Below, in pieces: positions 35,601-50,529 of a stretch of 53,858 bases of DNA. Within the stretch, counting starts at the first letter, position 1. Each line of letters begins with the position of its first letter. The translations under genes were made by a program, and so were the position numbers. Source of the stretch: Sedimentisphaerales bacterium (GTDB lineage: Bacteria > Planctomycetota > Phycisphaerae > Sedimentisphaerales > Anaerobacaceae); NCBI GenBank assembly GCA_030611315.1, contig JAUWPZ010000006.1, forward strand, positions 1-53,858. The letters run 5' to 3'. The notes beneath the pieces were generated by a model, which worked only from the letters and a program-made list of their open reading frames with translations, was not told where the DNA came from and did not search any database.

Positions 35601-35974
35601 AAGCCGCACAACCGCAAAAAAAGGTCAGCTATATATGGGAGCTGGCCAGGCCCGAGCTTCTGGCAAACGCCATGGTTTTGGCCGACAGGAATCTGTTCTT
35701 AGCCGGCGCTCCCGATGTTGCCGACGAGGAAAAAACTTTCGAGTATGTCTTCGGAGCCAACGACGAAATCAATCGGCAGATGCGCCGGCAGGAACAAGCA
35801 TGGCTCGGCAAAGAAGGGGCTTTGCTCAATGTTGTCTCTGTGGATACGGGCCAAAAACTGTCGGGATACAAGCTTCCTGCAATTCCTGTCTGGGACGGCA
35901 TGATTGCAGCGGATGGACGGCTGTATCTGGCGTTGAGAAATGGTACCATCCTGTGCATGGGCCCGGACCGCTGA
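32675..35974 (+). CDS. Exported methyltransferase-like/PQQ beta-propeller fusion, paralogue 2
   Basis: 1,099 aa with AAGGA upstream of the ATG. Signal peptide ITIVGLLVVSCVLSGAKA. Rossmann part with GGLVVHIGCGDGKLTAAL, VQGLDADAKNV, LVVSD and DEVMRVLAPKGVAYIKRGGK. The linker IDEWTHYLHDPQG and blades such as VLDAATGKTI and DGWVYCLRAADGELAWRFRA follow. It shares its architecture and many exact strings with the preceding gene, 180 bases away, so the two arose by tandem duplication. A basic Gly/Lys/Arg-rich insertion (about residues 965-990, GNGGRRRKGKQKAAQPQKK) distinguishes it. Location is presumably periplasmic or surface, which is puzzling for a SAM-binding fold. Confidence 0.82.
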   Translation: MRNRKLLSITIVGLLVVSCVLSGAKAQSSNQKEEARRILDAAGVKGGLVVHIGCGDGKLTAALRANDSFVVQGLDADAKNVKAAREHIESLNCYGKVTVDGLRGSRLPYIDNLVSLVVSDNLGKVSRDEVMRVLAPKGVAYIKRGGKWTNTVKPRPGEIDEWTHYLHDPQGTMVGQDRIVGPPRRLQWIGGPKWLRNHDFMSSLNGLVSSNGRILYIIDEGLRYHIYLPGRWTVVARDAFNGAILWKRSFDQWFPHTWPFKSGPGYHPRRIVALGDRVYVTLGINAPVSVLDAATGKTIRSYDQTKGTAEIVLSDGVLYLVVEPDKEPFVYKHASPNRGKERDRVNRDFGWSKDNPASLVTAVSADSGKTLWKHRNRVAPLTLAVAGQMVFFHDGEHVAALDRKDGSEKWVSEKAGDWAIPATGYAPRLIAGDGVVILSTKRGFKGGRLVGLSVKTGEILWKSEQLGSGHFSPEDVFLIDGLVWTAATGKIQEKGTHFLAVDARTGRTKHDFVSKQIEAFFMHQRCYPGRATERYIMTSGTGTEFLEVGTERCDIHHWLRGSCIYGIMPCNGLLYKPPDSCACFYQSKLPHFCALAPASDDSRAEISKAARLEKGPVYGYIDNAKRKDARKKYDSWPTYRHDNERSGATETGVSAKLKKSWQTDLGGKLSTMTAADWKLFVSSIDQHKVYALDNATGKTIWSYSTGGRVDSPPTIFRGLAIFGCADGWVYCLRAADGELAWRFRAAPGDDKLLSYQQVESVWPLHGSVLVRDGVAYCLAGRNAFLDGGMRLVRLECATGKLLSETVLNDKDPRTGKNLQTLMAGKSIPVANADIFSSDGSHIYMRAQKFDLQGKRLDLDIAAGKERVQTGPGRHLFCPTGFLDEAWFHRSYWMYGKNAGEGHGEYTVPRNFTPTGRIMVFDKSRVYLLFAHNVGNNINPRTYYSLYAANKDGSVATAAVAAAEKGNGGRRRKGKQKAAQPQKKVSYIWELARPELLANAMVLADRNLFLAGAPDVADEEKTFEYVFGANDEINRQMRRQEQAWLGKEGALLNVVSVDTGQKLSGYKLPAIPVWDGMIAADGRLYLALRNGTILCMGPDR

Positions 35975-36028: not shown

Positions 36029-36514
36029 TTAGCTGAGATGCTCGCGGGCGAGCATCTCGGCAGCGGCTTCTACGGCTTCTCTGACAGGTTCCGAAAGTCC
36101 CGGGCTCACGCTATCGGGTATATGCGCCACTTGACAGGCAGTTACGATGACTTCTATGCCATAAAGGTCTCGAAGCTCACGGAGCAGGTTCGATGTTGGT
36201 GCCTGGTGCAAGGAAAAGTCGTCTATCTTAATCTTGGGGAGAGAATCAACGTCCAGGGAGAAGAGCTCGCCCGGCTTTCGGCTGCAATCCAACGCATCTA
36301 CGATGATTATTTTCGACGGTTTCTTGTCGGAAAGTATGGTGTCAAAGAGGATTTCCCGAACTGATGTCCCTGCGTCGAGCACGTAGATGTCGCCGGGAAT
36401 CGTGAAATTGCGCCGAAGGCGTTGAGCCACAGCCGGCCCAAACCCGTCATCTCCAAACAGGATGTTGCCACATCCCAGGATAAGAACGGATTTGTCGTAC
36501 CAATCGGGTCCCAT
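36029..36514 (-). CDS. [NiFe]-hydrogenase maturation protease
   Basis: 161 aa of the HyaD/HycI/FrcD type: VLILGCGNILFGDDGFGPAV at the N-terminus (Glu replaced by Asp at the first Ni-sensing position, as in FrhD-like members), VLDAGTSVREI, IIIVDALDCSRKPGEL and a C-terminal VIVTACQVAHIPD with the conserved His nearby. It removes the C-terminal peptide of the large subunit after Ni insertion. Its likely substrate is MvhA at 36841-38280, whose product has 25 residues after the DPCLSCATH motif. The gene is on the same strand, about 330 bases further on. Confidence 0.92.
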   Translation of the reverse strand: MGPDWYDKSVLILGCGNILFGDDGFGPAVAQRLRRNFTIPGDIYVLDAGTSVREILFDTILSDKKPSKIIIVDALDCSRKPGELFSLDVDSLPKIKIDDFSLHQAPTSNLLRELRDLYGIEVIVTACQVAHIPDSVSPGLSEPVREAVEAAAEMLAREHLS

Positions 36515-36840
36515 TCAGCGTAAGCCTAATTGAATATCGTTAATTTCGTTTGAGCTTCGTAAAAGCCATACCCGGGTTTTGCCGTAAGTCATGTAGAATA
36601 CAACTCTCGGGGAAAGCTCAAGTGCTTTTCGTATTCTACCGGGGCCCACAGGAAGGTTCGCGCGCAGACCGAAATTCCCGACGAGATTTCAGACCATAAC
36701 CGTGCGCCTTATCACAGCATAATCAGACTCCTTCGTCAAGTCAACGTACATTCAGCCGCAGGGGAATCGCCGTCTTCCCAGCGAACCGCACCAATGCTGT
36801 CAGCTCCCCGGGTGAATAGAAATCTACATCCGGTGGTTTC
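36515..36840 (-). other. Spacer between mvhA and the maturation protease; possible decayed coding sequence
   Basis: 326 bases. On the minus strand, two frames read like protein without a usable start: PPDVDFYSPGELTALVRFAG just after mvhA, and LPVGPGRIRKALELSPRVVF continuing to NDIQLGLR immediately before the protease ATG. They are in different frames and separated by stops, so this may be a small gene broken by frameshifts. I see no domain. Confidence 0.35.
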
Positions 36841-38280
36841 TCAATTGGCTATAGTGTCGATTACTTTCCCACAAGCATCCCGAATCTCAACCTTCACAGG
36901 TATTGTGCCGTCCAGCTTATGCGTTGCACAGGACAGGCACGGGTCGTAAGCGCGTATGGCCATCTCGACCCGGTTGAGGATGCCCTGGTCGTAATTGCCG
37001 TCCTTGATGAGGGTTTTTGCCGCCTGCTTGACGGACATATTGATTGGCGCCATATTGTGGGTTGTACCCACAATAATATTGACATCGGTAATAAGCCCGT
37101 TTTCGTCCGTCTCATAGTCGTGTATCAAGGTGCCTCTGGGGGCCTCAACGCAGCCCACGCCTCTCGCTGCGCGCGGCGTGACGGGGACGCGCGTTTCTTT
37201 CCCGGTTATCTCCGGGTCGTTCAGGAGCTCGACAACGTGCTCAGCATTATAGACCAGCTCTATCAACCTCGCGTAGTGGTAGAGCAGCGTCTGCTGGGCG
37301 GGCCGACCAAACTTCTCTCGGAACTCTTCGAGTTCCGCCTGCGCCAACGGCGTCGCCATCCTGTCACACACATTGATACGAGCAAGCGTGTTCGTGCGGT
37401 AGATACCCGATGGATTATCCAAGTCCATCGAGAATTCACCCCATTTTTTGGCATAAGGGAACTTCACATAGGACCAGGGCTCGATATGTTCGCCGATATA
37501 TTCGGTGTATTGGTCGTACGGGAATTCTTCGTAAGAACCGTCAGGTTTCATCAAACGGGCCTTGCCGTCGTATACGTTCAGGGTTCCGTCGTCGGTCACA
37601 GTCCCAAGGAAGCCGGTCTCTATCACACCCAGGATATTTATAGTGTCGAGGTACTTGGGGAAGATGTCCTCCTTGGCGAAGCGGATGGCGAACTTGGCAA
37701 ACTCCAGGACCTCATTCGCCATTGGCAGGAGCTTGTCCCGTTCGGCCTCCGTAAGCGGCTTCGAGAAGCCGCCGGGTACGGCTGTCACGGGGTGGATGGA
37801 CTTGCCCGACGCGATGCCCAGCATCTGCGTGCCGAGTTGCCGGGCGTGCACGACCTTCTTGCCGAGATCCGGGTTTGACTGCACGATACCAAAAACATTG
37901 CGGACGGAGTAGTCCGCGTCGGGGCCCATCACGAAGTCCGGGCCGGCCAGGAAGAAAAAGTGGAGTATCTTGTCTGAGCAGAAGGCGATGCTCTGGCAGA
38001 GGTCCCTGAGCTTTATGCCCGTAGGCGGCGGTGTTACACCGAATACCGCGTCGTTGGCCTTGGCCGACGCCAGGTGATGGTGCCACGGGCACACCCCGCA
38101 GATACTCGTTACGATGCGCGGCAGCTCTTCGACCGGTCTGCCGATGCAGAACTTCTCAAAGCCGCGAAGCTCCACAACATTGACGAACGTATCTGCAACG
38201 TTGCCGCTGTCATCAAGGTTTATGGTTACCTTGGCATGGCCCTCTATTCTGGTTACTGGAGCAATTGTGATTGTTTTCAT
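36841..38280 (-). CDS. mvhA: [NiFe]-hydrogenase large subunit, MvhA type (group 3c)
   Basis: 479 aa from ATG 38280, which has AGGAG ten bases upstream; the longer frame from 38343 overlaps mvhG and is unlikely. Nickel-site motif L1 is SICGVCPWHHHLA (Cys61, Cys64) and L2 is DPCLSCATH (Cys448, Cys451, His454). Other family strings are TIAPVTRIEGHAKVTI and RGFEKFCIGRPVEELPRI. The 25 residues after His454 should be removed by the maturation protease. It is the H2-activating subunit of the soluble Mvh module and passes electrons through MvhG and MvhD to HdrA. The second L2 Cys is normal Cys, not selenocysteine. Confidence 0.95.
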   Translation of the reverse strand: MKTITIAPVTRIEGHAKVTINLDDSGNVADTFVNVVELRGFEKFCIGRPVEELPRIVTSICGVCPWHHHLASAKANDAVFGVTPPPTGIKLRDLCQSIAFCSDKILHFFFLAGPDFVMGPDADYSVRNVFGIVQSNPDLGKKVVHARQLGTQMLGIASGKSIHPVTAVPGGFSKPLTEAERDKLLPMANEVLEFAKFAIRFAKEDIFPKYLDTINILGVIETGFLGTVTDDGTLNVYDGKARLMKPDGSYEEFPYDQYTEYIGEHIEPWSYVKFPYAKKWGEFSMDLDNPSGIYRTNTLARINVCDRMATPLAQAELEEFREKFGRPAQQTLLYHYARLIELVYNAEHVVELLNDPEITGKETRVPVTPRAARGVGCVEAPRGTLIHDYETDENGLITDVNIIVGTTHNMAPINMSVKQAAKTLIKDGNYDQGILNRVEMAIRAYDPCLSCATHKLDGTIPVKVEIRDACGKVIDTIAN

Positions 38281-38296
38281 ATGTATAATCTCCTTA

Positions 38297-39253
38297 CTAT
38301 TTTGGGCGGACCGGCAACGGCCTGAGTCGATTTTGACCGCCAATGTACCTGTTCAATAGTGCGCGTCTGTCCGGCACTTGTTTTACGTCCAGCCCTATGG
38401 ACGAAATCGCTGTCATCATATCAACCAAAGGACTGGCGCCCTTACGGATTGGGCCGAAGCATCCACGGCATGGCATATACCCCTTGATGCAGCGAGGGAC
38501 AGTAACTTCTTCACCATTACTGTTTTCTTTGTTGCCACAGCCTGCCAGCGTGACAGGTCCCAGACACAAATAGCCCTGTTCCATAAAACACCTGGTATTA
38601 TCCCAGGGCCGGCTTTGGTCGAATTCCATTGACTCAAGTGTTCTTTTAATCTCGCCGCCTGCAGCCTTCTTTTCACGTTTCAAAGGACACTCGTCACAAA
38701 CACTGCGCTCGGGGATTTCAAAAGGTTCGCCTTTCAAGAGTGCAGTGAGGGCCTTGACAATCAGAGCAGGGTTTGTAGGACAGCCCGGAATACGGATGTC
38801 CACATCCACAACCTCGTCCAAAGCATACACCCTGTCCAATAGAGGGGGGAGATTCTCCTGAGGCGTATCTGCTGCATCCGTAGTCTTGGATTCCCTATAT
38901 ACTTTTTGGTACAGGGCCTCAAGAGGAAACATATTTGCCATAGCGGGAATCCCGCCAAAGCAAGCACATGAACCCAGAGCGATGAGGGTTTTACACTTTT
39001 TCCTCATTTCTTCGGCAACCTGCTTCTCCTTTTCGTTCCGCACACCTCCTGAGACTATCCCCACATCCGCTTCGGGGATTTCCATCTGGTCTTTTTCTCC
39101 CGTTTGGCCAAAATACTTATGGTCCATCAACACGGGCATGTGGACAAAATCAAGCTCGCCCAGCAGGTCAAGAAGCGGCTCGCCTATGTCCAGTATTGTA
39201 ACCTCACATCCGCCACAGATGTTCAGCCATTCTTCAGCTACTTTAACTGCCAC
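38297..39253 (-). CDS. mvhG: [NiFe]-hydrogenase small subunit, MvhG type
   Basis: 318 aa, GTG start with AAAGGAGG seven bases upstream. Fe-S ligands are WLNICGGCEVTILD near the N-terminus (proximal cluster), ALGSCACFGGIPA, RIPGCPTNP and the C-terminal Cys set PRCIKGYMPCRGCFGP. There is no twin-arginine signal, so the enzyme is cytoplasmic. It lies 16 bases before mvhA. It relays electrons from the Ni-Fe site towards MvhD. Confidence 0.94.
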   Translation of the reverse strand: MAVKVAEEWLNICGGCEVTILDIGEPLLDLLGELDFVHMPVLMDHKYFGQTGEKDQMEIPEADVGIVSGGVRNEKEKQVAEEMRKKCKTLIALGSCACFGGIPAMANMFPLEALYQKVYRESKTTDAADTPQENLPPLLDRVYALDEVVDVDIRIPGCPTNPALIVKALTALLKGEPFEIPERSVCDECPLKREKKAAGGEIKRTLESMEFDQSRPWDNTRCFMEQGYLCLGPVTLAGCGNKENSNGEEVTVPRCIKGYMPCRGCFGPIRKGASPLVDMMTAISSIGLDVKQVPDRRALLNRYIGGQNRLRPLPVRPK

Positions 39254-39351
39254 AGTACTACCTCCTTTCTAAGGAATTTTGATATTCTCTACAACCTTTC
39301 ATTATCTCATACGTTAGTGCCTCGCCGTCTTCTCCGGAAGACAACGGGCGC

Positions 39352-39774
39352 TTAATCTTCTCCACAACCCTGGCCGCTGCTTTTCCTGGCAAGAAGCTGC
39401 TCAATCTTTTCCAGAAGAACATGCGGTTCGACGCCTTTCTCGATATAGTCGTCAACGGGCAGAAACCTGGAGTGTATGCGCTCGCCGGGGAAATCAAACC
39501 CGGTTTGTTCCCGCATGGATGTCAGCATCAGTATAGGCATCTCGGCAAAACGCGGGTCTTTCCTTATCTTTCTTGCAAAAACAAATCCTTCAGCGCCTTT
39601 TCCCATCATAACGTCGAGGATGAGCGCATCGGGGGATTCTTCCTCCAACTTGGCGAGTCCCTCGTCCGGGTCGTAGGCGAACTGTACTTTGTATTGTTTT
39701 GTCTCGAGTATCACCTTTGCTATCGCCACGAAATCCGGGTCATCATCGATTATCAGTATGGTTGGAGCGCTCAT
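39352..39774 (-). CDS. Single-domain response regulator receiver inside the hydrogenase operon
   Basis: 140 aa, essentially one receiver domain: ILIIDDDPDFVAIAKVIL (acidic pocket), phosphorylation Asp54 in ALILDVMMGKGAEGF, then PILMLTSMREQ with Thr/Ser and the Lys in DDYIEKGVEPHVLL. No output domain follows. ATG has GGAG five bases upstream and lies just after the stop of the 65-aa gene. A receiver between hydrogenase subunits could control complex activity or feed the PAS kinase/NtrC system at 50.5-53.4 kb. Confidence 0.88.
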   Translation of the reverse strand: MSAPTILIIDDDPDFVAIAKVILETKQYKVQFAYDPDEGLAKLEEESPDALILDVMMGKGAEGFVFARKIRKDPRFAEMPILMLTSMREQTGFDFPGERIHSRFLPVDDYIEKGVEPHVLLEKIEQLLARKSSGQGCGED

Positions 39775-39783
39775 TTCTTCTCC

Positions 39784-39981
39784 TTAGTTCTGCTCTACCT
39801 CTATCTCGGTAACAACGCGCCGTGTGTAGAGAAATACTTTTCCATCCTCACGACACGAGCGAACTTCGAAGCCCTTTTCGCTGTACTGCTTCTCTACCGA
39901 GCTTGCCTTTTCTTCGTTGTCGTACTCTACTCCGTCCCACATGAACTTCTTGCCTTCAAATGAAAGAGTTATCTCTGCCAT
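39784..39981 (-). CDS. Small conserved-looking protein of the Hdr-Mvh operon, unknown
   Basis: 65 aa: MAEITLSFEGKKFMWDGVEY, then a Glu/Lys-rich middle and FLYTRRVVTEIEVEQN. One Cys only, no known motif. It sits between mvhD and the receiver gene with tight spacing on both sides (9 bases to the receiver start), so it is probably translated with them. I do not recognise it. It could be a small accessory or assembly protein of the complex. Confidence 0.6.
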   Translation of the reverse strand: MAEITLSFEGKKFMWDGVEYDNEEKASSVEKQYSEKGFEVRSCREDGKVFLYTRRVVTEIEVEQN

Positions 39982-40008
39982 ATCTCAAAGTCCTCTATCT
40001 GATTCGTC

Positions 40009-40425
40009 TCAAGTCTTGTACATGCTGGGGCCCAGTGCCCGGACAGCCTCGGTCATCTCACGGACTACCTCGGCGAACCTGGGGCCCTCGGACGCCGATA
40101 CCCATTCGAGCCTGAACCGTTCGGGCTCTATACCGAAATCTTCCAACAGGAGCTCTATCGCCTCTTTTCGGTTCTCGGCTTTGAGATTGCCGTCAATGTA
40201 GTGACAGTCTCCGGGATGGCAGCCGCACACAAGAACTCCATCAGCGCCTTTGGTCAGCGCGTCGATGACCAGGTTCGGGTGCACCATCCCGGAACACATA
40301 ACGCGGACAATCCGAAGGTTCGGAGGATACTGCTGCCGGGAAACACCGGCCAGGTCCGCCCCTGCGTACGAGCACCAGTTACAACAGAAACCGATAATGA
40401 CCGGTTCGAAATCTTCATCTGCCAT
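40009..40425 (-). CDS. mvhD: MvhD-type hydrogenase delta subunit ([2Fe-2S] connector)
   Basis: About 138 aa from ATG 40425 (GAGGAG nine bases upstream). It has the MvhD/FrhD-like signatures IIGFCCNWCSYAGADLAG, VRVMCSGMVHPNLVIDAL, DGVLVCGCHPGDCHYIDGN and PERFRLEWVSASEGPRFAEV. MvhD carries a [2Fe-2S] cluster and docks the hydrogenase to HdrA. It follows the HdrA fusion gene on the same strand. The spacer between the two has short ACAGAAG repeats (40445-40482). Confidence 0.95.
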   Translation of the reverse strand: MADEDFEPVIIGFCCNWCSYAGADLAGVSRQQYPPNLRIVRVMCSGMVHPNLVIDALTKGADGVLVCGCHPGDCHYIDGNLKAENRKEAIELLLEDFGIEPERFRLEWVSASEGPRFAEVVREMTEAVRALGPSMYKT

Positions 40426-40479
40426 ATTAAACAAACTCCTCAAATTAGACCACAGACGACCATCTTCTGTCTTCTGTTT

Positions 40480-43400
40480 TTAGGTTTCTCCCAACGCGGC
40501 TTCTACCATAGCGCCCAACTGCTCAAGCTTGAAACTGCGAATGAATATTCCCTTTTTCGGGCACGTGGCCTGGCAAACTCCACAACCTTTACACAATGCT
40601 CCGTCTCTTTCAACCGTTTTCTTGATGTCGCCTTCGTACATATATTCAATCAGCGTCAAAGCGCTGTACGGGCATGGGTCGATGCAATACGCACATCCAT
40701 CACAATTCTCGTCCACCACTACTGATATGGTCGCTTCCATTTCGATTTCGTCTTTAGAAAGAATAGTGGCCGCCCGGGCTGCTGCTGCATCTGCCTGGAC
40801 AATGCTTTCTTCAACGGATTTGGGACAGTGGGCCAGACCGCACATGAACACGCCATCGGTAGCAAAATCAACGGGTCTAAGCTTCATGTGTGCCTCGAGG
40901 AAAAACCTGTCCTGATTAAGGGATATCTTGAACAGTTTGCTCACTTCGTCAACATCCTCATTGGGGATGATAGCGGGAGCAAGCACCACCATATCACAAT
41001 TTATACGGACAGGAAGGTTCAGAATGGGGTCAACACAGGAAACTTCCAACCTGTTACCTTTGACGGAAACCTCCGGTTTCTGGTCCTCCTCGTAACGGAT
41101 GAAACGCACGCCTTTCTCTCTTGCCTCTCTATAGTGTTCTTCCAGCAAACCGTATGTTCTCATGTCACGGTAGAGTATATAGACATCGGTCTCGGGATGG
41201 ATGTTCTTTACGGCGATCGCGTTTTTCACCGCCTGCGAACAACAGACTCGGCTGCAATACGGCCTCGCTTCCTCTCTTGAACCAACACACTGAATCATTA
41301 CGACAGACTTGGCGTTCTGGAGTTCAGGTTTGTCCTCGGCGAGCCATTCTTCCAGATAGCGCTGCGTGAGAATACGCTTATCTTGACCGTAAAGGTATTC
41401 GGTCGGTTCATATTCGCCGGCTCCGGTTGCGACAATAGCAATACCGTGCGACACTTCTTTTTCAGTGCTGTCGTGCCGTATAGTGGACTTGAAATTGCCC
41501 ACAGAACCTTCAACGGCAGAAACCTCGCTTTGAAGGTACACGTCTATCATAGGATGAGAGTTAATCCTCTCAATAATGCCGGCCAGCTTCTTCTGGGGGT
41601 CGTCGCCACTGAGCAGGGTGTGTATATGTCTGAAGTTGCCTCCCAACTGCTGCTCTTTTTCAACGAGATGTACCTGGAATCCCTGGTCGGCTAAGTTGAG
41701 CGCGGCTGTCATTCCCGCCAGACCGCCGCCCATTACGAGAGCTTCATTATTCACCTTGAGGGTGCCCTTATACAAAGGTTCCAGCAGCCTGGCCTTGGCC
41801 ACCGCCATCCTCACAAGGTCTTTGGATTTTCGTGTGGCCTTTTCAGGCTCATGCATATGCACCCAACTACACTGGTCTCGGATATTGGCCATCTCGAAGA
41901 GGTACTCGTTGAGGCCGGCCTCGCGGCAAGTGTTACGGAAAAGCGGCTCATGGGTCCTCGGAGTGCATGACGCCACCACTACGCGGTTGAGGTCGTGCTC
42001 GGCTATCATCTCCTTAATATTCTCCTGCGTGTCGGTGGAGCAGGTATAAAGATTATCCTCTGCATAGACAACGTTGGGCAGGGTCTTGGCATATTCGACA
42101 ACACCCGGCACATCGACAAAGCCGCCGATGTTCCTGCCGCAGTGGCAGACAAATACGCCGATGCGGGGTTCCTGGCCGCTTACATCTTTTTCAGGCGGAT
42201 ACTCCTTATGTGTTATCAATGTGCCTCGCTCGTCCTTCAAAAGCACCATCGCCCTGGCAGCTCCCGCAGACGCCTCCATCACCGTTTCGGGAATGTCCTT
42301 CGGCCCGGAAAAGGGCCCGCAGGCATAAACCCCGGGCCTTGAAGTCTCGACCGGAGCGAAACTCTGCGTGTCGGCAAAACCATGCTTATCAAGCTCGATA
42401 TCAAATTTCTCCGCCAACTGTCGCACTTCTTTAGGTGGTCGGATACCCGTAGAAAGAACCACTATATCAAACTCTTCGGTCGTGATATCTCCGTCGTCTT
42501 TTTGGTAAGTAATTCTCAGGTCCTTCGTACCGGGAACCTCCTTGACCGAAGATGGGTAACAGCGAATGTACCGTACGCCGAGTTCCTTGGCGCGTTCGTA
42601 ATAGGCATCGAACCCCTTCCCAAAAGCACGCATGTCGATGAAGAAAATCGTGCAATCGAGGTTGGGGGCGTGTTCCTTGGCCATAATCGCTTCCTTGGTA
42701 GCATACATACAGCAGACCGAGGAGCAATAGTTTCTCTCCACTTCTCGCGACCCGACGCACTGAATCCACGCGATTTTCTTGGGATGTTTCTGGTCGGACA
42801 GCCGAAGTATTTCGCCCATATAGGGGCCGCTGGCTGAAAGAAGACGCTCGAATTGCAGACTCGAGACGACATTAGGATACCTGCCGTAGCCGAGCTCCTT
42901 CTTAAGGTCGGGGTTGAACTGCTCAAATCCGGGCGACAGGACCACGGCGCCGACGTCCACCTCCTCGAATTCATCCTGCTGCTCATAGTCAATGGCGCCG
43001 GCCTCGCAAAAATTCTCGCAGGACTTGCACGCATCCTTAAGAAAGTGCATACAAGTATCACGGTCAATCACGGCTACCTTGGGTATTGCTTGAGGGAAGG
43101 GTATATAGATGGAAGACCGTGGAGAAAGGCCCATATCATATTCAGACATGATAGGCCTGGGTTCGTTCAACGAAATCTCGGATAAAAGCCCTGCATCCAT
43201 CGGGCAGACAACCTTGCAGGCGCCGCAGGTGATACAGATAGGAGAGTGTTTGTCGTAGGGAGCAGAGACCTTCCGTTCCGAACCGCGATTGGCAAAACTG
43301 ATGGCGCCTACGCCCATCCTTTCCTCGCATACCCTTGTACAAAGTCCGCAGAGGATGCAGTCATCATTTTTCTTGGGGAAACGCGGCTCTCCGACGCCCA

Positions 43401-43725
43401 TCTCCGCCGCCATTTCCTTTAGCCGCACCGAATCCGGACAGCGAGCCAATAACAATTCGAGCATAATCCGACGGTTCTTCAAAACCCTTTCCGTGTCAGT
43501 TTTGACAACCAGCCCTTCCTGGGCGGGATAGACACAGGAGGCCTGAATGACTGAACCGCGAGATGAGGCCAGTTCGACCAGGCAGAGACGACACGCACCG
43601 TAGGGCTCCAGCGACTTATGGTAGCAGAGCGTAGGAATATGGATACCAAGTTTTTCCGCCGCCTCCAGGACGGTCGAACCCTCCTCAACCTCAACCTTTT
43701 TGCCGTCTATCGTCAAAGCAATCAT
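40480..43725 (-). CDS. hdrA: HndD/NuoG-like ferredoxin domain + HdrA C-half + full HdrA fusion
   Basis: ATG 43725 is preferred (MIALTIDGKKVEVEEGSTVL). Residue numbers count from the frame Met at 43746, seven codons earlier. Residues 8-80: plant-type [2Fe-2S] (CYHKSLEPYGACRLC, Cys71). Residues 130-182: two [4Fe-4S] (CILCGLCTRVC, CITCGACKVVC), as in HndD/HydA and NuoG; the His-Cys3 motif between them is not visible. Residues 196-510 match the C-terminal two thirds of HdrA from YIPFPQAIP on (CVGSRE, YCSSVCC) but lack the first FAD-binding GxGxxG. Residues 525-1000 are a second, complete HdrA (FVCHCGRNIGG, VMGGGLAGMTAAL, CVGSREEARPYCSRVCC). The C-terminus has two [4Fe-4S] (CDGCAYCIDPC, CKGCGVCQATC). 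The missing FAD-binding half is encoded at 45968-46849. Confidence 0.9.
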   Translation of the reverse strand: MIALTIDGKKVEVEEGSTVLEAAEKLGIHIPTLCYHKSLEPYGACRLCLVELASSRGSVIQASCVYPAQEGLVVKTDTERVLKNRRIMLELLLARCPDSVRLKEMAAEMGVGEPRFPKKNDDCILCGLCTRVCEERMGVGAISFANRGSERKVSAPYDKHSPICITCGACKVVCPMDAGLLSEISLNEPRPIMSEYDMGLSPRSSIYIPFPQAIPKVAVIDRDTCMHFLKDACKSCENFCEAGAIDYEQQDEFEEVDVGAVVLSPGFEQFNPDLKKELGYGRYPNVVSSLQFERLLSASGPYMGEILRLSDQKHPKKIAWIQCVGSREVERNYCSSVCCMYATKEAIMAKEHAPNLDCTIFFIDMRAFGKGFDAYYERAKELGVRYIRCYPSSVKEVPGTKDLRITYQKDDGDITTEEFDIVVLSTGIRPPKEVRQLAEKFDIELDKHGFADTQSFAPVETSRPGVYACGPFSGPKDIPETVMEASAGAARAMVLLKDERGTLITHKEYPPEKDVSGQEPRIGVFVCHCGRNIGGFVDVPGVVEYAKTLPNVVYAEDNLYTCSTDTQENIKEMIAEHDLNRVVVASCTPRTHEPLFRNTCREAGLNEYLFEMANIRDQCSWVHMHEPEKATRKSKDLVRMAVAKARLLEPLYKGTLKVNNEALVMGGGLAGMTAALNLADQGFQVHLVEKEQQLGGNFRHIHTLLSGDDPQKKLAGIIERINSHPMIDVYLQSEVSAVEGSVGNFKSTIRHDSTEKEVSHGIAIVATGAGEYEPTEYLYGQDKRILTQRYLEEWLAEDKPELQNAKSVVMIQCVGSREEARPYCSRVCCSQAVKNAIAVKNIHPETDVYILYRDMRTYGLLEEHYREAREKGVRFIRYEEDQKPEVSVKGNRLEVSCVDPILNLPVRINCDMVVLAPAIIPNEDVDEVSKLFKISLNQDRFFLEAHMKLRPVDFATDGVFMCGLAHCPKSVEESIVQADAAAARAATILSKDEIEMEATISVVVDENCDGCAYCIDPCPYSALTLIEYMYEGDIKKTVERDGALCKGCGVCQATCPKKGIFIRSFKLEQLGAMVEAALGET

Positions 43726-43750
43726 TTTATTCTCTGTCTCTCTCATATAG

Positions 43751-45544
43751 TTATGTTACCGACACCGCGTCAAACTTGCATACATCGAAACAAACACCGC
43801 ATTTGATACACTTGTCTTGCTCAATTGTATGGGGCATTTTCACTTCGCCGGTGATAGCCTCCTGAGGGCAATTCTTGGCGCACAATCGGCATCCCTTACA
43901 TTTCTCTTCGTTAATAACATAGGTGATTAACGCCTTGCACACTCCGGCCGGACAGCTCTTGTCATTGATGTGGGCTTCGTATTCGTCGCGGAAATAGCGG
44001 ATAGTGCTGATAACCGGATTCGGCGCGGTTCTTCCCAAAGCACAAAGAGAAGAGTCTTTAACGGCCTCGGATAATTCCTCGAGCATTTCAATATCACCTT
44101 CTTTACCGTTTCCTTCGCAGATACGGACGAGAATGCCATGCATCACATCGATACCTTCGCGGCAGGCTGTGCATTTGCCGCAGGATTCGTCCTTCAAAAA
44201 CTCGAGGAAGTACCTGGCTACATCTACCATGCAGGTGTCCTCGTCCATTACTATCAGCCCTCCGGAACCCATGATGGAGCCCACCTCTGCGAGTTTCTCA
44301 TAATCTATAGGCAGGTCCAGCAGCGACTGAGGTATGCAGCCGCCGGAAGGTCCGCCTGTTTGAACCGCTTTGAATTCCTTGTCGCCGGGTATCCCGCCTC
44401 CTATGTCGTACACTATCTCCCGCAGCGTAATACCCATCGGGACCTCGACAAGGCCGGTATTTTTGACTTTCCCTACTACCGAAAAGACCTTGGTACCCTT
44501 GCTGGTTTCGGTTCCGATGGCGGAGAACCACTTCGCACCTCTATTGATTATATCGGGAACATTAGCCCAGGTCTCCACGTTGTTTATGTTGGTGGGCGCA
44601 TCCCAAATTCCGGATTCCACAGGGAATGGGGGCCTGATTCTCGGCTCGGGAGCTCTGCCTTCGAGAGAAGCTATCAGTGATGTCTCCTCACCACAGACAA
44701 AGGCTCCTGCTCCTCTGTGGATAGAGACATCAAGGTCAAAGCCGGTGCCGAATATATCTTTGCCCAACAAACCGTAATCTGTGGCTTGTTTTATCGCCTT
44801 TATCAACCTTTCTCGGGCCAGAGGATATTCGTTCCTGATATAAACATGACCATAAGAAGCCCCAATCGCTCTTGCGCCAATTATCATCCCTTCCAGAACG
44901 GAATGCGGGTCGGACTCGATTATGCTTCGGTCCATGAACGCACCCGGGTCTCCTTCATCGGCATTGCATACTATGTGTTTGGTCTCGCCTTTCGCCGCCC
45001 GTGCTAACTCCCACTTCCTGCCTGTTGGGAAACCGGCGCCGCCCCTCCCCCGCAATCCCGAGAGTTTTATCTCCTCTATAACTTGCTCAGGCGTCATCTC
45101 GTTTAGCGCTTTAGCCAGCGCCGTGTACCCGTCTCGAGCGATGTATTCATCAATCTGCTCAGGGTCAATCATCCCCCTGTTACGCAATGCAATCAGTCTC
45201 TGTTTGTTGAAGAAGCCGATGTCGCTCATCTTCGGGACAGGGAGTTCTTCGGCAGGTGGAGTATACATTAATTTCTGCACCGGCCTGCCCTTGAGGAAAT
45301 GCTCCTCCACGAGGTGAGTAATATCATCGTCTGTTAGCAATTGATAAAAGATGTCGTCCGGTTTGACGACCATAACCGGTCCCTGGGCACAAAAACCGTT
45401 GCAGCCGGTCATCACTACTGCCACTTCATTTTGAAGATTATGCTTCTTGAGTTCCCGTTCAAGCGTCTCCTTTATTCTGAAAGAGCCGTTTGAAACACAA
45501 CCGGTCCCCGCACAGAGCATGACATGCGTTCGATAGGGTTCCAT
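43751..45544 (-). CDS. HndC/NuoF-like NAD(P)H-oxidising flavoprotein with extra ferredoxin domains
   Basis: 597 aa. Residues 8-85 are a thioredoxin-like [2Fe-2S] domain (CAGTGCVSNG, GCNGFCAQGP). FMN/NAD binding of NuoF follows: GLRGRGGAGFPTGRKWE at 163-179, CNADEGDPGAFMDRS at 193-207 and GAGAFVCGEETSLI at 278-291. An SLBB domain and the NuoF [4Fe-4S] site SCGKCTACREG at 454-464 come next. Two C-terminal [4Fe-4S] motifs (CKGCRLCAKNC, CIKCGVCFDVC) end the protein. It should exchange electrons between NAD(P)H and the Fe-S chain. The long form with N- and C-terminal ferredoxin parts is the HndC/HydB type of bifurcating enzymes and not that of respiratory complex I. Confidence 0.93.
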   Translation of the reverse strand: MEPYRTHVMLCAGTGCVSNGSFRIKETLERELKKHNLQNEVAVVMTGCNGFCAQGPVMVVKPDDIFYQLLTDDDITHLVEEHFLKGRPVQKLMYTPPAEELPVPKMSDIGFFNKQRLIALRNRGMIDPEQIDEYIARDGYTALAKALNEMTPEQVIEEIKLSGLRGRGGAGFPTGRKWELARAAKGETKHIVCNADEGDPGAFMDRSIIESDPHSVLEGMIIGARAIGASYGHVYIRNEYPLARERLIKAIKQATDYGLLGKDIFGTGFDLDVSIHRGAGAFVCGEETSLIASLEGRAPEPRIRPPFPVESGIWDAPTNINNVETWANVPDIINRGAKWFSAIGTETSKGTKVFSVVGKVKNTGLVEVPMGITLREIVYDIGGGIPGDKEFKAVQTGGPSGGCIPQSLLDLPIDYEKLAEVGSIMGSGGLIVMDEDTCMVDVARYFLEFLKDESCGKCTACREGIDVMHGILVRICEGNGKEGDIEMLEELSEAVKDSSLCALGRTAPNPVISTIRYFRDEYEAHINDKSCPAGVCKALITYVINEEKCKGCRLCAKNCPQEAITGEVKMPHTIEQDKCIKCGVCFDVCKFDAVSVT

Positions 45545-45571
45545 TCATTCATCTCCAACGTGCATAAGTCT

Positions 45572-45955
45572 TCATCCCAAGCGTTCACTACCCATGGCCA
45601 GGGCATATTCCTCGACCACTGTCCCGGACAAAACATGGTCCGAGAAGATTTTCTTGGTCTTCTCTTCATCCAGCTCAACATACTTGACGGGGGCTTGTCC
45701 CTTGAGTTCCACCGTTATCATAGGTTCGCGGCTGCAAAGTCCGGCACAACCTGAAGCGGTGAGAATAATATCTTTTGCCTGTTCCTCCTCTGTCAAAGCC
45801 AAAAGCGTACTCATTATTGTTCTTGCGCCGGCGGCAATACCGCACGTTCCCATGTGGACCGTTATCTTCGCCCGGGCGTCTCCGTCACGCAGACTCATTG
45901 TCCTGGACATTTGTTCCCTGATTTTCTTCAGGTCTTCAGGTTTAATCTTGGGCAT
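45572..45955 (-). CDS. HndB-like thioredoxin-fold [2Fe-2S] protein
   Basis: 127 aa with the HndB signature KITVHMGTCGIAAGARTIM and ILTASGCAGLCSREPMITVE (Cys38, Cys70, Cys74 visible). In Desulfovibrio-type HndABCD the B subunit accompanies the NuoE-like and NuoF-like subunits of an NADP-linked [FeFe]-hydrogenase. Here it sits between the HdrA-N/NuoE fusion and the HndC-like gene, keeping the hnd order but with no [FeFe]-hydrogenase domain nearby. It is cytoplasmic and probably an electron relay. Confidence 0.85.
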   Translation of the reverse strand: MPKIKPEDLKKIREQMSRTMSLRDGDARAKITVHMGTCGIAAGARTIMSTLLALTEEEQAKDIILTASGCAGLCSREPMITVELKGQAPVKYVELDEEKTKKIFSDHVLSGTVVEEYALAMGSERLG

Positions 45956-45967
45956 AGTAATCCTCTT

Positions 45968-46849
45968 TCAATCCTGATATTTGTCAAGAATTGCAGCAGC
46001 CTCAACCGGGTTCACTTTGCCGTAGAGGTCGTCACCTATGGTTATTACCGGAGACAGACCGCAGCAGCCTATGCAGCGGACCGATTCGAGCGTAAACCGC
46101 ATGTCGGAAGTTGTTTCTCCGGTCTTTATGCCTAATTCACGCTCAAGCCTGTCCATAATTCTCGGCGCCCCTTTGACATGACAGGCGGTACCCATGCAGA
46201 CTGTAACAATGTGTTTGCCCCGGGGCTTAAGACTAAAGGCCTTATAAAACGTGGCAATCCTCAAGATGTGTTCCAGGGGTATTTGCTTTTCCTGGGAAAC
46301 CCTCATCAGAACATCGGGAGGCAGCCAGTTGAATTCGTCGGTGATATCTTGAAGGATTGGCACCACGGTTTCCCTGTCACCATCATATCTGCCAATGATT
46401 CGGTCCGCCTTGGTCCGCACGCTCTCTTCTATCTGAACCGGCGCACGTCCCGGCTGGTCCAGATAGACGATGTTCTTGACCAGACAGTGTTCGACGCACT
46501 CGCCGCAGCCGGTACACTTGTCCGGGTCCACCGAGCGTGCCTTCTTCCTGATGCGAACGCTGAAGTTGCCCGCTGTTCCTTCGATGGATTCAATCTCGGA
46601 ATAGGTCAGTTTCTCGATATTCAGGTGACCGCCGCAATCAACCATGCGGGGAGCAAGAGTGCACATCGCGCAGTCGTTGGTCGGGAACGTCTTATCCAGT
46701 TGCGCCATCACGCCGCCGATAGACGGCCCTCTTTCAACAAGATAAACCTTATACCCCGCCTCCGCTAAATCGAGCGAAGCCTGCATACCTCCAACGCCGC
46801 CTCCAACTACCAAGACGGCGCCGACTTTTTGACCGTTTCCCTGATTCAT
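45968..46849 (-). CDS. HdrA N-terminal FAD half fused to a NuoE/HndA [2Fe-2S] domain
   Basis: 293 aa. Residues 11-105 match the flavin-binding entry of HdrA: VLVVGGGVGGMQASLDLAEA, GPSIGGVMAQLDKTFPTND and CAMCTLAPRMV, then LNIEKLTYSEIE. A single [4Fe-4S] motif CTGCGECVEHC follows at 112-122. Canonical HdrA would go on with the string YIPFPQ and the rest of its flavodomain. Here the chain turns instead into NuoE/HndA: VVPILQDITDEFNWLPPDVL, ILRIATFYKAF, and [2Fe-2S] ligands VCMGTACHV (Cys218, Cys223) and CIGCCG (Cys259, Cys263). The missing HdrA part begins at residue 196 of the 40480-43725 product. Both halves lie in one operon, so the flavodomain may be rebuilt between two chains. Confidence 0.9.
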   Translation of the reverse strand: MNQGNGQKVGAVLVVGGGVGGMQASLDLAEAGYKVYLVERGPSIGGVMAQLDKTFPTNDCAMCTLAPRMVDCGGHLNIEKLTYSEIESIEGTAGNFSVRIRKKARSVDPDKCTGCGECVEHCLVKNIVYLDQPGRAPVQIEESVRTKADRIIGRYDGDRETVVPILQDITDEFNWLPPDVLMRVSQEKQIPLEHILRIATFYKAFSLKPRGKHIVTVCMGTACHVKGAPRIMDRLERELGIKTGETTSDMRFTLESVRCIGCCGLSPVITIGDDLYGKVNPVEAAAILDKYQD

Positions 46850-46882
46850 TTACGTTCCACCTTGTATCTATCGCGAGACCAA

Positions 46883-47752
46883 CTATCCTTTGCGCATACC
46901 CGACAGTAATTCGTCCGCGCTGACAAAATGTCTGTGTAATCCTAATTTATCGGAAGGTATTCCGAATGCCAGGCCCATAAGCTGAGTAAAGTAGAATATT
47001 GGCAGGCCGAAACTGCTGCCGTATTTCTTTTCAATCCCTGCCTGGCGCGTATCAAGATTCGTATGGCACAGTGGACAGGCAACGGCAACGGCATTTGCTC
47101 CAACCGCCCTGGCCTCCTCTAATATATCATGCGTCAGCTTGAGAACGATATCGGTCTCCGTCGCCGAGATGCCTCCTCCGCAGCACTCCGTCTTGTACGA
47201 CCAGTCGAGCGTTTCAATGCCCAACGAGCGAATAATCCTGTCCATGCTCATCGGATACTCACATTCGTCGAACTGCATCATTTTGGGCGGTCTTGTCAGG
47301 AGACAGCCGTAGTAGCATACCACCTTCAGCCCGGGCAGCTCGGTCGTAACCGCGCTTGCAAGGTCTATCCCTTTCGAGAATATCTCGAGGGGACTGAGAA
47401 CATTCATTGATTTCGGCAGCGGTTCATCAAGGATGCTGCTGATCTGCTCCTTTACTTCGGGATGCTCGGCTGTTTCGTGAATCGCCGCCTTCAATCGGGA
47501 AAAACAGGCGGCGCATGGGGCGACAACTTCCGTCATCCCCATCTTCTCTGCCAGGCACAGATTCTGCATGGGAAGTGCAAGAGACAAAAGCTTCGAGGTA
47601 CAATGCGCAGGGGTCGTGCCGCAGCATATCCAGCCTTCTATCTCTCGCATCTCAATACCAAGCTTATCACAGACGGCCCTGAACGATATGTCGTATTCAG
47701 CGGCCATAGAGTGAAGAGAACATCCCGGATAGTAAGCGTATTCCAAGGTCAT
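46883..47752 (-). CDS. hdrB: Heterodisulfide reductase subunit B-like protein
   Basis: 289 aa with two CCG domains: EGWICCGTTPAHC with APCAACFSRL, and KTECCGGGISATE with VACPLCHTNLD. These bind the two non-cubane [4Fe-4S] clusters that form the disulfide-reducing site in HdrB. GGAGG lies ten bases upstream of the ATG, and a 29-codon frame ends on it (ATGA overlap at 47749-47752). The organism has no visible methanogenesis genes here, so the substrate is probably not CoM-S-S-CoB. The usual HdrABC-MvhADG partnership is complete in this operon. Confidence 0.93.
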   Translation of the reverse strand: MTLEYAYYPGCSLHSMAAEYDISFRAVCDKLGIEMREIEGWICCGTTPAHCTSKLLSLALPMQNLCLAEKMGMTEVVAPCAACFSRLKAAIHETAEHPEVKEQISSILDEPLPKSMNVLSPLEIFSKGIDLASAVTTELPGLKVVCYYGCLLTRPPKMMQFDECEYPMSMDRIIRSLGIETLDWSYKTECCGGGISATETDIVLKLTHDILEEARAVGANAVAVACPLCHTNLDTRQAGIEKKYGSSFGLPIFYFTQLMGLAFGIPSDKLGLHRHFVSADELLSGMRKG

Positions 47753-47838
47753 TGCCTGTTAACCTCCACGAGTGTGCCGGCAGAAGAAACTCGTTCCTTC
47801 AAGTATACGTTGGTAATGTCGCTGAAAAGCTGTTTCAT
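47749..47838 (-). CDS. Putative 29-aa micro-ORF between hdrC and hdrB
   Basis: MKQLFSDITNVYLKERVSSA then GTLVEVNRQ. The ATG lies one base after the hdrC stop (TGACATG), with GGAG eight bases upstream inside hdrC. Its TGA overlaps the hdrB ATG (ATGA). Such exact spacing is what translated operon genes show, but the frame is short and I know no relative. It could be a coupling leader or a tiny subunit. Confidence 0.4.
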   Translation of the reverse strand: MKQLFSDITNVYLKERVSSAGTLVEVNRQ

Positions 47839-47839
47839 G

Positions 47840-48412
47840 TCAGGCGCTCCGATTCCCCTTCTCGATGCGCTTTACACGGCGAAAGATTCTCCAGGTGGTA
47901 CGCGCACCCTTGAAGCTGGGAATTATCTTGAGCTTGCCTTTTCGGAACATCTTCATTCCCAGGCCAACGTCTTTGAAGAACTCGAAAGTCCTCAGTTTTA
48001 AACTTATCATCATCCCGACCTCGAACATTCGTCCACATTTCTTGACGTTGGCAAGAACCGCTTTGTGAAAGGAGGAGACTCGCGGAATAGTGGGTTTTAT
48101 GCCTCGTCTGAGAGTTATGATTTTAACGGCATCCATTACCTTCGCGACATCGACTTCCTGCGGACATCTGGTGGTGCATGTCTCACATGATGAGCACAGC
48201 CAGACTGTCTTGCTGTTAAAAACGATATCATCCATTCCGAGACGGATGGCATGTATCAGTTGGGCGGGCTTATAGTCCATGGCGTACGATATCGGACAGC
48301 CCGCTGCGCACTTTCTGCATTGATAGCAGAGATTTACTTCCTGTCCGCTTTCTCTCAAAACCTCTTCGGCCAATTGCGACCGCGATGTAATCGTTAGGTC
48401 AGGTTCTATCAT
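47840..48412 (-). CDS. hdrC: Heterodisulfide reductase subunit C-like protein
   Basis: 190 aa with two [4Fe-4S] motifs: NLCYQCRKCAAGCPIS (Cys29, 32, 35, 39) and WLCSSCETCTTRCPQEVD (Cys73, 76, 79, 83), followed by the HdrC-type helical region (VMDAVKIITLRRGIKP) and a basic C-terminus. It passes electrons from HdrA to HdrB. It is the first gene of the operon; the 1.1 kb upstream is non-coding. No membrane anchor is present, so the complex is soluble. Confidence 0.93.
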   Translation of the reverse strand: MIEPDLTITSRSQLAEEVLRESGQEVNLCYQCRKCAAGCPISYAMDYKPAQLIHAIRLGMDDIVFNSKTVWLCSSCETCTTRCPQEVDVAKVMDAVKIITLRRGIKPTIPRVSSFHKAVLANVKKCGRMFEVGMMISLKLRTFEFFKDVGLGMKMFRKGKLKIIPSFKGARTTWRIFRRVKRIEKGNRSA

Positions 48413-49512: not shown

Positions 49513-50283
49513 TTAGGACATCTCTTTCATTTTAGCTTTTTGGCGAGCAGCCTTAATGGCAAGCTGACCATCTACTTCGTCCTGGCATATCTGGTGAAAC
49601 TCACACTTTTCGCAGAGATAAAGATTCGGACAGATACGAGATGAGATGTCTCCACTCATTGTGTACCGGCACTGATTTTTTCCCGGAAGAGCATTGAGTT
49701 TTTCGAGAAAAGGTGCTATCCTCGGGTCACTGTTGTACTTCTCTTTCTTCATCATACCTGCATGAAAGACGCACCCGGAATTACACTGGTATCCAAGAGT
49801 ACACATACGTTTCTTGACTATTTCCGCCTGATACCAGATGCAGGGGGAGGCTACCTCTTCTTCGACCGGGGGGACTTCAACAGGTATAGGCATTTCAACA
49901 GGCGGAGCCGTGGCCAACTGAATATCGCGTGCCCTTACTATCGAAGTATCGAGCCGCTCCAGCTCAAAAGGCTTTGCCAAGTAGTCAACAGCGCCTCTAC
50001 GCATTGCCTCCACCGCAGTGTCAATCGAGGGGTATGCGGTGATGATTATGACTTTTACTTTGGGATTCTTCACCCTGACTTCGCTCAATACCGACAGTCC
50101 ATCGCGGCCCGGCAGCTTGAGGTCAACTATCATGACGTCATAATCTTCCAGATTGAAACCTTCCAGCTCCTTATCACCATCACTTGCGGCAGCAACCTTA
50201 TGGTCTTCGCTTGAAAACCAATCAACTAATGAGTCCCGCATGATGTCTTCATCTTCTACTACCAAAATCGATTCTTTTTTCAT
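49513..50283 (-). CDS. Response regulator with Cys-rich C-terminal domain
   Basis: 256 aa. Receiver domain 1-120: ESILVVEDEDIMRDSLVDWF, phosphorylation Asp54 in DVMIVDLKLPGRDG, IIITAYPSIDTAVEAMRRGA and YLAKPFELERLD. A Pro/Val/Glu linker (125-145) follows. The tail has nine Cys (148, 161, 167, 171, 205, 218, 224, 227, 233), including CTLGYQCNSGC, ICPNLYLCEKC and FHQIC, enough for one or two metal or Fe-S sites. No DNA-binding domain is visible. It lies between the NtrC-type activator and the Hdr operon on the same strand, behind a sigma-54 promoter, so it may report redox or metal state to the operon. Confidence 0.85.
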   Translation of the reverse strand: MKKESILVVEDEDIMRDSLVDWFSSEDHKVAAASDGDKELEGFNLEDYDVMIVDLKLPGRDGLSVLSEVRVKNPKVKVIIITAYPSIDTAVEAMRRGAVDYLAKPFELERLDTSIVRARDIQLATAPPVEMPIPVEVPPVEEEVASPCIWYQAEIVKKRMCTLGYQCNSGCVFHAGMMKKEKYNSDPRIAPFLEKLNALPGKNQCRYTMSGDISSRICPNLYLCEKCEFHQICQDEVDGQLAIKAARQKAKMKEMS

Positions 50284-50387
50284 GACTTAAAATCTCCAAT
50301 CTTTGTCTTTGTACTCAGTTACACAAGAGCGATTCGGACAATAAGAATCAATCCTGTGTGAATCAGCAACCTACTTGACTTGTTATA

Positions 50388-50405
50388 TCGCAAGAGCTGT
50401 GCCGA
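50388..50405 (-). promoter_or_regulatory. Sigma-54 (-24/-12) promoter for the Cys-rich response regulator
   Basis: The minus strand reads TCGGCACAGCTCTTGCGA (50405-50388). GG (-25/-24) and GC (-13/-12) are separated by exactly ten bases, as required, within a close match to TGGCAC-N5-TTGC. Transcription should start near 50378, leaving a leader of about 95 bases before the ATG at 50283. The adjoining gene at 50530-51882 encodes a sigma-54 activator, which supports the call. Confidence 0.7.
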
Positions 50406-50529
50406 AAAGAGTACGACTTAAAGTTTGTTCTAAGAATTTCGCTAAAGGCAGTATATTAAATGGTTTATGATGGGCGGAAAAAACTTTTTGTGAATGTGAA
50501 AAATGGTGAAAGTACTAATAAATGCGACA

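Follow-up and report, generated by a model that had tools for sequence, protein, structure and literature searches.

Does an operon that carries the genes of a heterodisulfide reductase (Hdr), of a [NiFe]-hydrogenase (Mvh) and of a Bfu-type module encode one enzyme or several? The operon lies on contig JAUWPZ010000006.1 of a Sedimentisphaerales bacterium (assembly GCA_030611315.1, our G000; 3.70 Mb, 221 contigs, 93% complete), of which positions 1-53,858 were studied. The window denotes this whole stretch of 53,858 nucleotides (G000:C57). One of its HdrA modules is divided over two genes, and a Bfu set sits in the cut. Judged from the sequence, one complex likely unites the hydrogenase with the flavin site of Hdr and with the NAD(H) site, and bifurcation of electrons from H2 is its predicted function. 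We give this reading a probability of about 0.7. What makes one complex likely is that each part of the divided HdrA is joined to a different end of the Bfu set, and that the two fused ends co-occur in genomes. The initial annotation had put forward a single complex as an idea, which has become much more likely.

The twelve genes, in the order of the operon and with domain labels taken from Pfam and NCBIfam matches, are as follows.

47840..48412, minus strand: HdrC-like protein of 190 amino acids with two CxxCxxCxxxC motifs (Pfam/NCBIfam and motifs)
46883..47752, minus strand: HdrB-like protein of 289 amino acids with two CCG stretches; best PDB relative 8rvu_b, residues 3-285
45968..46849, minus strand: gene 3, 293 amino acids, N-terminal HdrA piece fused to NuoE/HydC/BfuC; the NuoE part is also recognised by fold
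45572..45955, minus strand: HndB-like protein of 127 amino acids; weak Pfam/NCBIfam matches, place conserved in the operons of relatives
43751..45544, minus strand: HndC/HydB/BfuB (NuoF type), 597 amino acids; end-to-end alignment with 7t2r_B
40480..43746, minus strand: gene 6, 1088 amino acids, NuoG/HndD/BfuA head, rest of the split HdrA and a second HdrA
40009..40443, minus strand: MvhD/FlpD subunit, 144 amino acids (Pfam/NCBIfam)
39784..39981, minus strand: open reading frame of 65 amino acids, no Pfam match
39352..39774, minus strand: single-domain response regulator inside the operon (Pfam)
38297..39253, minus strand: MvhG, [NiFe]-hydrogenase small subunit (Pfam/NCBIfam)
36841..38343, minus strand: MvhA, group 3c [NiFe]-hydrogenase large subunit, with ICGVCPWHH and AYDPCLSCATH
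36029..36514, minus strand: hydrogenase maturation protease (NCBIfam/Pfam), 326 bases from MvhA

The initial annotation had counted eleven or twelve minus-strand genes in 36841-48412. Eleven are there in the order it gave and the maturation protease lies just outside, the twelve together spanning 36029-48412.

The divided HdrA and its fusions

Positions 141-256 of the NCBIfam HdrA2 model match gene 3, and positions 254-562 match gene 6. The positions matched on solved HdrA agree with this, and the gene 3 piece corresponds to residues ~146-258 (5odc numbering). It holds the Rossmann motif GGGVGG, the motif TNDCAMC and the first [4Fe-4S] motif of the inserted ferredoxin domain, and the cut falls between the two [4Fe-4S] motifs of that domain. 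Gene 6 consists of a head (~1-190), the remainder of the split HdrA (~195-508, with E300 and K351) and a second HdrA (520-1088). The second HdrA has its own N-terminal domain and C-terminal ferredoxin motifs, and no inserted ferredoxin motifs were seen in it by eye. In alignment, the last [4Fe-4S] motif of the gene 6 head is in register with the first ferredoxin motif of HdrA. The relatives of NuoE, HndB, NuoF and the NuoG head that sit in the cut are joined to both HdrA ends. Set against solved HdrA, both parts fall short of a complete flavin domain, and they are attached at opposite ends of the Bfu set. An HdrA with N-terminal, thioredoxin-reductase, inserted ferredoxin and C-terminal ferredoxin domains in one chain is not what the operon encodes. 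The HdrABC set first described as complete is therefore present as to HdrB and HdrC, and its HdrA is one copy split over genes 3 and 6 plus a second copy in gene 6. Likewise, the expected NuoE domain is present, in a gene that is an HdrA-NuoE fusion.

The residues expected at the cofactors are retained. C63 of gene 3, within TNDCAMC, aligns with Cys197 of 5odc. An alignment of 22 gene 3 rows, made up of the window, 11 of the 120 listed proteins and 10 of the 12 complete fusions, shows no change at C60, at C63 or at any of the four cysteines in the first ferredoxin motif. The cysteines of the second motif (C232, C240, C243, C247) as well as E300 and K351 do not vary among 23 rows of gene 6 and of uncut HdrA. 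These comprise the window, 14 of the 15 complete gene-6-type frames of L020-L099 (L031 omitted) and eight uncut HdrAs, seven of them hand-chosen from 22 complete ones. E300 and K351 are the equivalents of Glu356 and Lys409 of HdrA at the bifurcating FAD. These two residues are described as key for the HdrA flavin in PMC12054007, which, like the other papers cited here, is drawn on in excerpt.

An in-frame TGA stands at the Cys197 place in seven split loci (L032, L033, L039, L042, L046, L047 and L124) and in many unsplit HdrAs, and probably encodes selenocysteine. In L033 the read-through frame continues into NuoE and the end of the N-piece is unclear. Selenocysteine-containing HdrA is known in sulfate reducers (excerpts of PMC2702500 and PMC5109826).

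BfuB consists of a thioredoxin-like [2Fe-2S] part, a NuoF core and two C-terminal [4Fe-4S] motifs. Its residues 3-595 align with 7t2r_B, and 18 cysteines in five motifs, counted by eye, are matched, which we take to be cluster ligands. The NuoE part of gene 3 matches 7t2r_C, giving the five-cluster BfuB with a BfuC partner that marks the Bfu family. The gene 6 head holds C41, C52, C55 and C71 together with two four-cysteine motifs (130-140 and 171-181). The HndD-like head joined to HdrA that had been proposed is supported. HndB and HndC/NuoF-like modules were also found as predicted, HndB by its weak matches. HdrB has two CCG domains. MvhA, MvhD and MvhG are all present, and the L1 and L2 motifs of MvhA agree with those given for group 3c, ICGxCxxxH and AYDPCxxCATH (excerpt of PMC6085437), in keeping with the class first assigned. 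The called MvhG and MvhA frames share 47 bases, and an internal ATG at 38283 is the more likely start of MvhA.

Selection on both HdrA parts appears to be purifying. The ratio of nonsynonymous to synonymous substitution rates (dN/dS) was 0.04-0.13 in 17 of 20 comparisons, the other three not being computable because of saturation, and some dS values exceeded 1. In four comparisons it was 0.04-0.06 for the N-terminal part of HdrA (HdrA-N) and 0.04-0.12 for the C-terminal part (HdrA-C). A broken HdrA remnant as an account of gene 3 was rejected in view of the low dN/dS, the invariant cysteines, the Sec/Cys position and the conserved seam. An artefact of sequencing or assembly was rejected in view of the same arrangement in other genomes and loci.

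The two fused ends occur together. Among 61 genomes (the own genome and 60 relatives), the N-end fusion of HdrA with NuoE is found in ten (G000, G007, G009, G012, G013, G017, G026, G033, G036 and G057). The C-end fusion of BfuA with HdrA is found in the same ten and in none of the other 51, the G009 match being cut at a contig end; the p value of 1.2e-10 for this co-occurrence is nominal only, the genomes being related. In G035 the contig ends within a NuoE frame that is still preceded by the first ferredoxin motif, and this is probably an eleventh N-end fusion. A split operon with MvhD, MvhG and MvhA is present in four relatives, three of them cut by the ends of contigs or of the examined stretch. 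At least five of 294 genomes drawn from the phylum, the window's own included, have a full-length N-end fusion; at most eight candidates were scored per genome, which makes these counts lower bounds.

A probable single complex and its alternatives

In known Hdr enzymes, electrons pass from MvhAG through MvhD and the C-terminal ferredoxin domain to the FAD, and low-potential electrons go to free ferredoxin. The inserted ferredoxin domain is the low-potential exit of these enzymes (excerpt of PMC9012536), and a Bfu module has been proposed to handle NAD(H) and ferredoxin together (excerpt of PMC9304861). In the complex envisaged here, the two HdrA parts would fold together, which would connect the HdrA ferredoxin domain with NuoE and with the NuoG-type head. 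The N-terminal cluster of the second HdrA may also have C63 of gene 3 among its ligands, an arrangement that has been suggested for other tandem HdrAs. Electrons from H2 would flow through MvhAG and MvhD to the C-terminal ferredoxin domain of gene 6 and on to the HdrA FAD. One branch would lead from there through HdrC and HdrB to a disulfide-type acceptor. The low-potential branch would run through the split ferredoxin domain, BfuA and BfuBC to NAD+ and ferredoxin. All steps could possibly be reversed, H2 then being made from NADH and ferredoxin.

Several observations weigh against this reading. Single-chain models are poor at the seam, with predicted local distance difference test (pLDDT) scores below 50 for residues 41-64 and 104-133 of gene 3 and 147-166 and 175-211 of gene 6. 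The genes are closely spaced for the most part, with gaps of 4-98 bases from HdrB through MvhG (four between BfuB and gene 6), 87 between HdrC and HdrB, and 326 between MvhA and the protease. Promoter and terminator scans of the operon gave chance levels only, as did the sigma-54 pattern (12 seen, 14.6 expected), so that the case for a single transcript comes from the spacing. The C-end fusion was not found in G035, and in G007 the fused ends are on different contigs. G017 consists of one contig, on which 2.7 Mb separate the fused ends, and its gene 6 stops at 655 amino acids; this copy is rearranged, broken or misassembled. The core is not specific to a hydrogenase, as two split loci carry other genes in place of MvhAG. 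These are genes after MvhD in L048, which we take to be Flx-like, and MetF in L029. The split HdrA-Bfu core seems to serve several partners.

A single complex could also run the other way as a matter of course, consuming NADH and ferredoxin and passing electrons from Bfu through HdrA to an acceptor at HdrB, to protons or to both. Such confurcation has been proposed for Bam-Bfu, and the HdrA, Bfu and MvhD parts of the window match that proposal (excerpt of PMC9304861). The gene 6 head may also fit, as no His/Cys set of the form expected for A3 was seen in it by eye, and the BfuA of Type 2 Bfu has neither the A3 nor the A5 cluster. The complete group 3c hydrogenase nevertheless fits H2 as a substrate in either direction, and the genome has matches to CdhC/AcsB, FTHFS, a CO dehydrogenase-family gene and MetF, a setting in which H2 uptake would help. 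We regard this confurcating mode as possible but somewhat unlikely.

There may instead be one complex without bifurcation at HdrA, in which the split ferredoxin domain is a plain wire and H2, NAD(H) and HdrB operate at one potential. Cutting the domain could shift its potentials, and some NuoF-type enzymes are non-bifurcating (excerpt of PMC5861303). The equivalents of Glu356 and Lys409 and the cysteine motifs of BfuB are retained, however, and we consider a plain wire unlikely.

That the operon encodes two enzymes, an Hdr-Mvh complex and a separate Bfu dehydrogenase that share only transcription, the fusions being incidental, is very unlikely: the genome does contain free Bfu sets (at C162 and C100), and some Hdr-Mvh operons lack Bfu, but neither HdrA part is a whole flavin domain, each is fused to the opposite Bfu end, and the two fused ends co-occur.

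Spread and likely origin of the cut

The fusions are not confined to the window. In a genome scan, the best 80 of 582 loci were kept and all counts are lower bounds. One or both fusions occur in at least 23 of these 80 loci, and both in 12. The 23 loci carry 13 NCBI phylum names, with two loci lacking one, that is, about a dozen phyla; the names are those of metagenome-assembled genome records, and Myxococcota is doubtful since its records are titled only Deltaproteobacteria. The N-terminal part of HdrA is a separate protein in L048, L080 and L049 and in the TGA-containing frames of L032, L039, L042 and L047. Because these parts end shortly after the first ferredoxin motif, the cut is at the same place without a NuoE fusion.

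Trees suggest more than one event. In a tree of 94 of the 117 HdrA-C segments (12 contig-cut fragments and 11 of unclear type were omitted), the split double form needs nine changes, at least seven of them forced by well supported branches. A single clade of split HdrAs was rejected with p 5e-76 (92 rows; L124 and L031 omitted), the tree and the test both being based on quick trees. Split and free forms intermingle in the BfuB tree of 77 rows, which needs 15 changes, at least four of them forced. Repeat loci were omitted from this tree, 14 being listed by hand, some of its free labels come from short stretches, and L168, which has an HdrA-N gene nearby, may be a split form. The natural reading of these trees is that insertion or exchange happened repeatedly at one point, although gene conversion downstream of the seam, in the HdrA-C part, could mimic repeated insertion.

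Uncut relatives indicate what may have preceded the split. L076 (Elusimicrobia) consists of an HdrC-type gene, a double HdrA of 1051 amino acids, MvhD, the 65-amino-acid frame, MvhG, MvhA and the protease, with no Bfu genes; no CCG domain was found by Pfam in its HdrC-type protein (417 amino acids). L043 (Bathyarchaeota) has an uncut double HdrA, MvhD, HdrC, HdrB, MvhG, MvhA and the protease in an order different from that of the window. In L038 (Actinomycetes) the genes stand in the same order as in the window, and HdrA contains a GltD insert (Pfam). Homologues of the 65-amino-acid frame lie downstream of MvhD in four relatives, in the split locus L024 and in the uncut operons L076 and L038. 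In four relatives (G013, G012, G033 and G036) the split operon holds an extra set between BfuB and the BfuA-HdrA gene. This set comprises two short related proteins, a CBS-ATPase, a PHP protein and an ATPase, the last two being one open reading frame in G013. Homologues of the same five proteins are present in the free Bfu set at C162 of the window's own genome, and none were found in the window. Since the extra set of the relatives recurs in a free Bfu set and uncut operons such as L076 and L043 exist, the simplest reading is that a whole free-standing Bfu set was inserted into the hdrA gene of an Hdr-Mvh operon and that the window lineage later lost the regulators.

The inserted genes also appear to be exchangeable. 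Between the window and G036, identity is 92% in HdrA-N, falls to 42% in NuoE, 62% in HndB, 52% in the thioredoxin part of BfuB and 72% in its core, and rises again to 80% in BfuA, 85% in HdrA-C and in the second HdrA, and 93% in MvhD. The proportion of nonsynonymous differences (pN) in the G036 fusion is 0.38 in the NuoE part as against 0.06 in the HdrA-N part. Because of this low identity and high pN between well conserved flanks, the NuoE-HndB-NuoF stretch appears to have been exchanged in G036 with the HdrA flanks kept. The corresponding identities with G012 are 92% in HdrA-N, then 77, 81, 79 and 92% from NuoE to the BfuB core, and 78% in BfuA, 84% in HdrA-C, 80% in the second HdrA and 85% in MvhD. 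G033 is intermediate (91% in HdrA-N, then 74, 72, 78 and 71% from NuoE to the BfuB core, then 76 and 81%). The first piece of G017 has a pattern of exchange similar to that of G036, though its copy is broken into two places and its gene 6 is short. BfuB has 1023-1110 amino acids in L112, L113 and L117 (from G013, G012 and G036) and in the split locus L024. In these proteins the C-terminal ferredoxin part is replaced by a GltD-type part (Fer4_20 and Pyr_redox_2), which possibly changes the pyridine nucleotide or ferredoxin partner.

In the GltD-inserted HdrAs, too, the insert separates the two motifs of the inserted ferredoxin domain. We tentatively propose, at slightly less than even odds, that this domain has acted as an evolutionary socket. 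Whole Bfu sets would have been placed in hdrA repeatedly at the same point, dividing the gene and wiring two bifurcating sites (the FAD of HdrA and the FMN of BfuBC) in series. The cassette would later have been exchangeable with its flanks kept, giving a family of H2/NAD(H)/ferredoxin/disulfide machines, based on a split flavoprotein, in about a dozen phyla.

Known systems and the genome setting

The operon shares parts with several described enzymes. Like HdrABC-MvhADG of methanogens (5odc), it has relatives of HdrB, HdrC, MvhA, MvhG and MvhD, the flavin-site residues of HdrA and the Cys197 position. It differs in its duplicated HdrA, one copy of which is spread over two genes with Bfu parts at the split, and in its planctomycete host. 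Named protein relatives point to Planctomycetota, probably Sedimentisphaerales (82% identity with L020). With Bam-Bfu it shares an HdrA-type module, an MvhD-type subunit and relatives of BfuABC in one set. In locus L070, which has a tungsten aldehyde-oxidoreductase-type gene, HdrA is uninterrupted, and NuoE, BfuB and BfuA each have a gene of their own. L073 and L081 share that order, and their HdrA is uninterrupted too when a TGA is taken as read through. In the window, by contrast, the NuoE relative and the BfuA relative each share a chain with part of HdrA, and a [NiFe]-hydrogenase takes the place of the tungsten enzyme; no tungstopterin reductase was found among the twelve proteins by Pfam or NCBIfam. 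The NiFe-Bfu enzyme HydABCSL of Acetomicrobium mobile (7t2r) likewise combines a [NiFe]-hydrogenase with BfuBC, and its BfuB is the top solved relative of ours. Its hydrogenase subunits feed BfuA (excerpt of PMC9304861) and it is without Hdr, whereas the window places MvhD and HdrA in between, with HdrA fused to the BfuA and BfuC relatives.

Type III HdrA with an inserted GltD (PMC12054007) and HdrA 9-11 with an NfnB-like insertion (PMC9012536) also have, in the excerpts used, an NAD(P)H-type module between the same two ferredoxin motifs. Those insertions are part of a single chain and start some residues further on, whereas several genes occupy the cut in the window and its HdrA comes from two chains; no Fer4_20/GltD stretch was found in genes 3 or 6 by Pfam. 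NuoE, HndB, HndC and the head of HndD are shared with the [FeFe]-hydrogenases HndABCD/HydABC. Unlike in HndABCD, there is no H-cluster domain, the head runs on into HdrA, and the match of gene 6 to [FeFe]-hydrogenase models is confined to their first part. FlxABCD-HdrABC also joins Hdr to an NADH-type dehydrogenase with an MvhD-type subunit, but Flx-type genes are absent from the window operon. No description of a split HdrA was found in the open full-text PMC literature searched, as excerpted and with subscription literature outside that scope. Within this literature the layout is a new variant that combines two known kinds, Hdr and Bfu.

The own genome holds further relatives of these modules. 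In its C75 HdrA paralogue a GltD insert occupies residues 157-551 (Pfam). L129 (G000:C75:5000-21314) is one run of a GltD-inserted double HdrA of 1487 amino acids, MvhD, HdrC, HdrB, MetV, MetF and a NuoF without its ferredoxin part, and resembles an Hdr-linked methylene-tetrahydrofolate reductase set. L137 (G000:C100:14000-27568) holds NuoE, BfuB and BfuA and, after them, a CO dehydrogenase-family gene and an AcsB frame (CdhC/AcsB at C100:26904-27368), a Codh-Bfu-like set outside Firmicutes. A second [NiFe]-hydrogenase (L128, G000:C221) has Fer4_22 and NAD-binding/DHODB-type neighbours and is presumably similar to group 3b. The [FeFe]-hydrogenase catalytic domain PF02906 had no match in this 93% complete assembly, in agreement with the earlier suggestion of a [NiFe] instead of an [FeFe] site for H2.

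Regulatory genes lie in and near the operon. Homologues of the response regulator between MvhD and MvhG are found at the same place in relatives. Upstream of the operon (window 49513-53371) are a response regulator, an NtrC-type sigma-54 activator and a PAS histidine kinase, with no sigma-54 site above chance. On the opposite strand, adjoining the operon (window 32675-35974), is a protein of 1099 amino acids with a methyltransferase domain and PQQ-type propeller repeats.

In summary, the exit domain of Hdr is interrupted here, and gene fusion ties it covalently to another module, one from a bifurcating family. This would allow a single soluble particle to keep H2, NAD(H), ferredoxin and an Hdr substrate in balance while relying on fewer diffusing carriers. 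Whether two bifurcation sites can operate in series, which was not settled for the Bam complex, could be tested on it directly. For an uncultured planctomycete whose genome has acetyl-CoA-pathway genes and no [FeFe]-hydrogenase match, the complex is likely a gateway for H2 and may be a main one. Repeated insertion at one point, if true, would be an unusual route of enzyme assembly.

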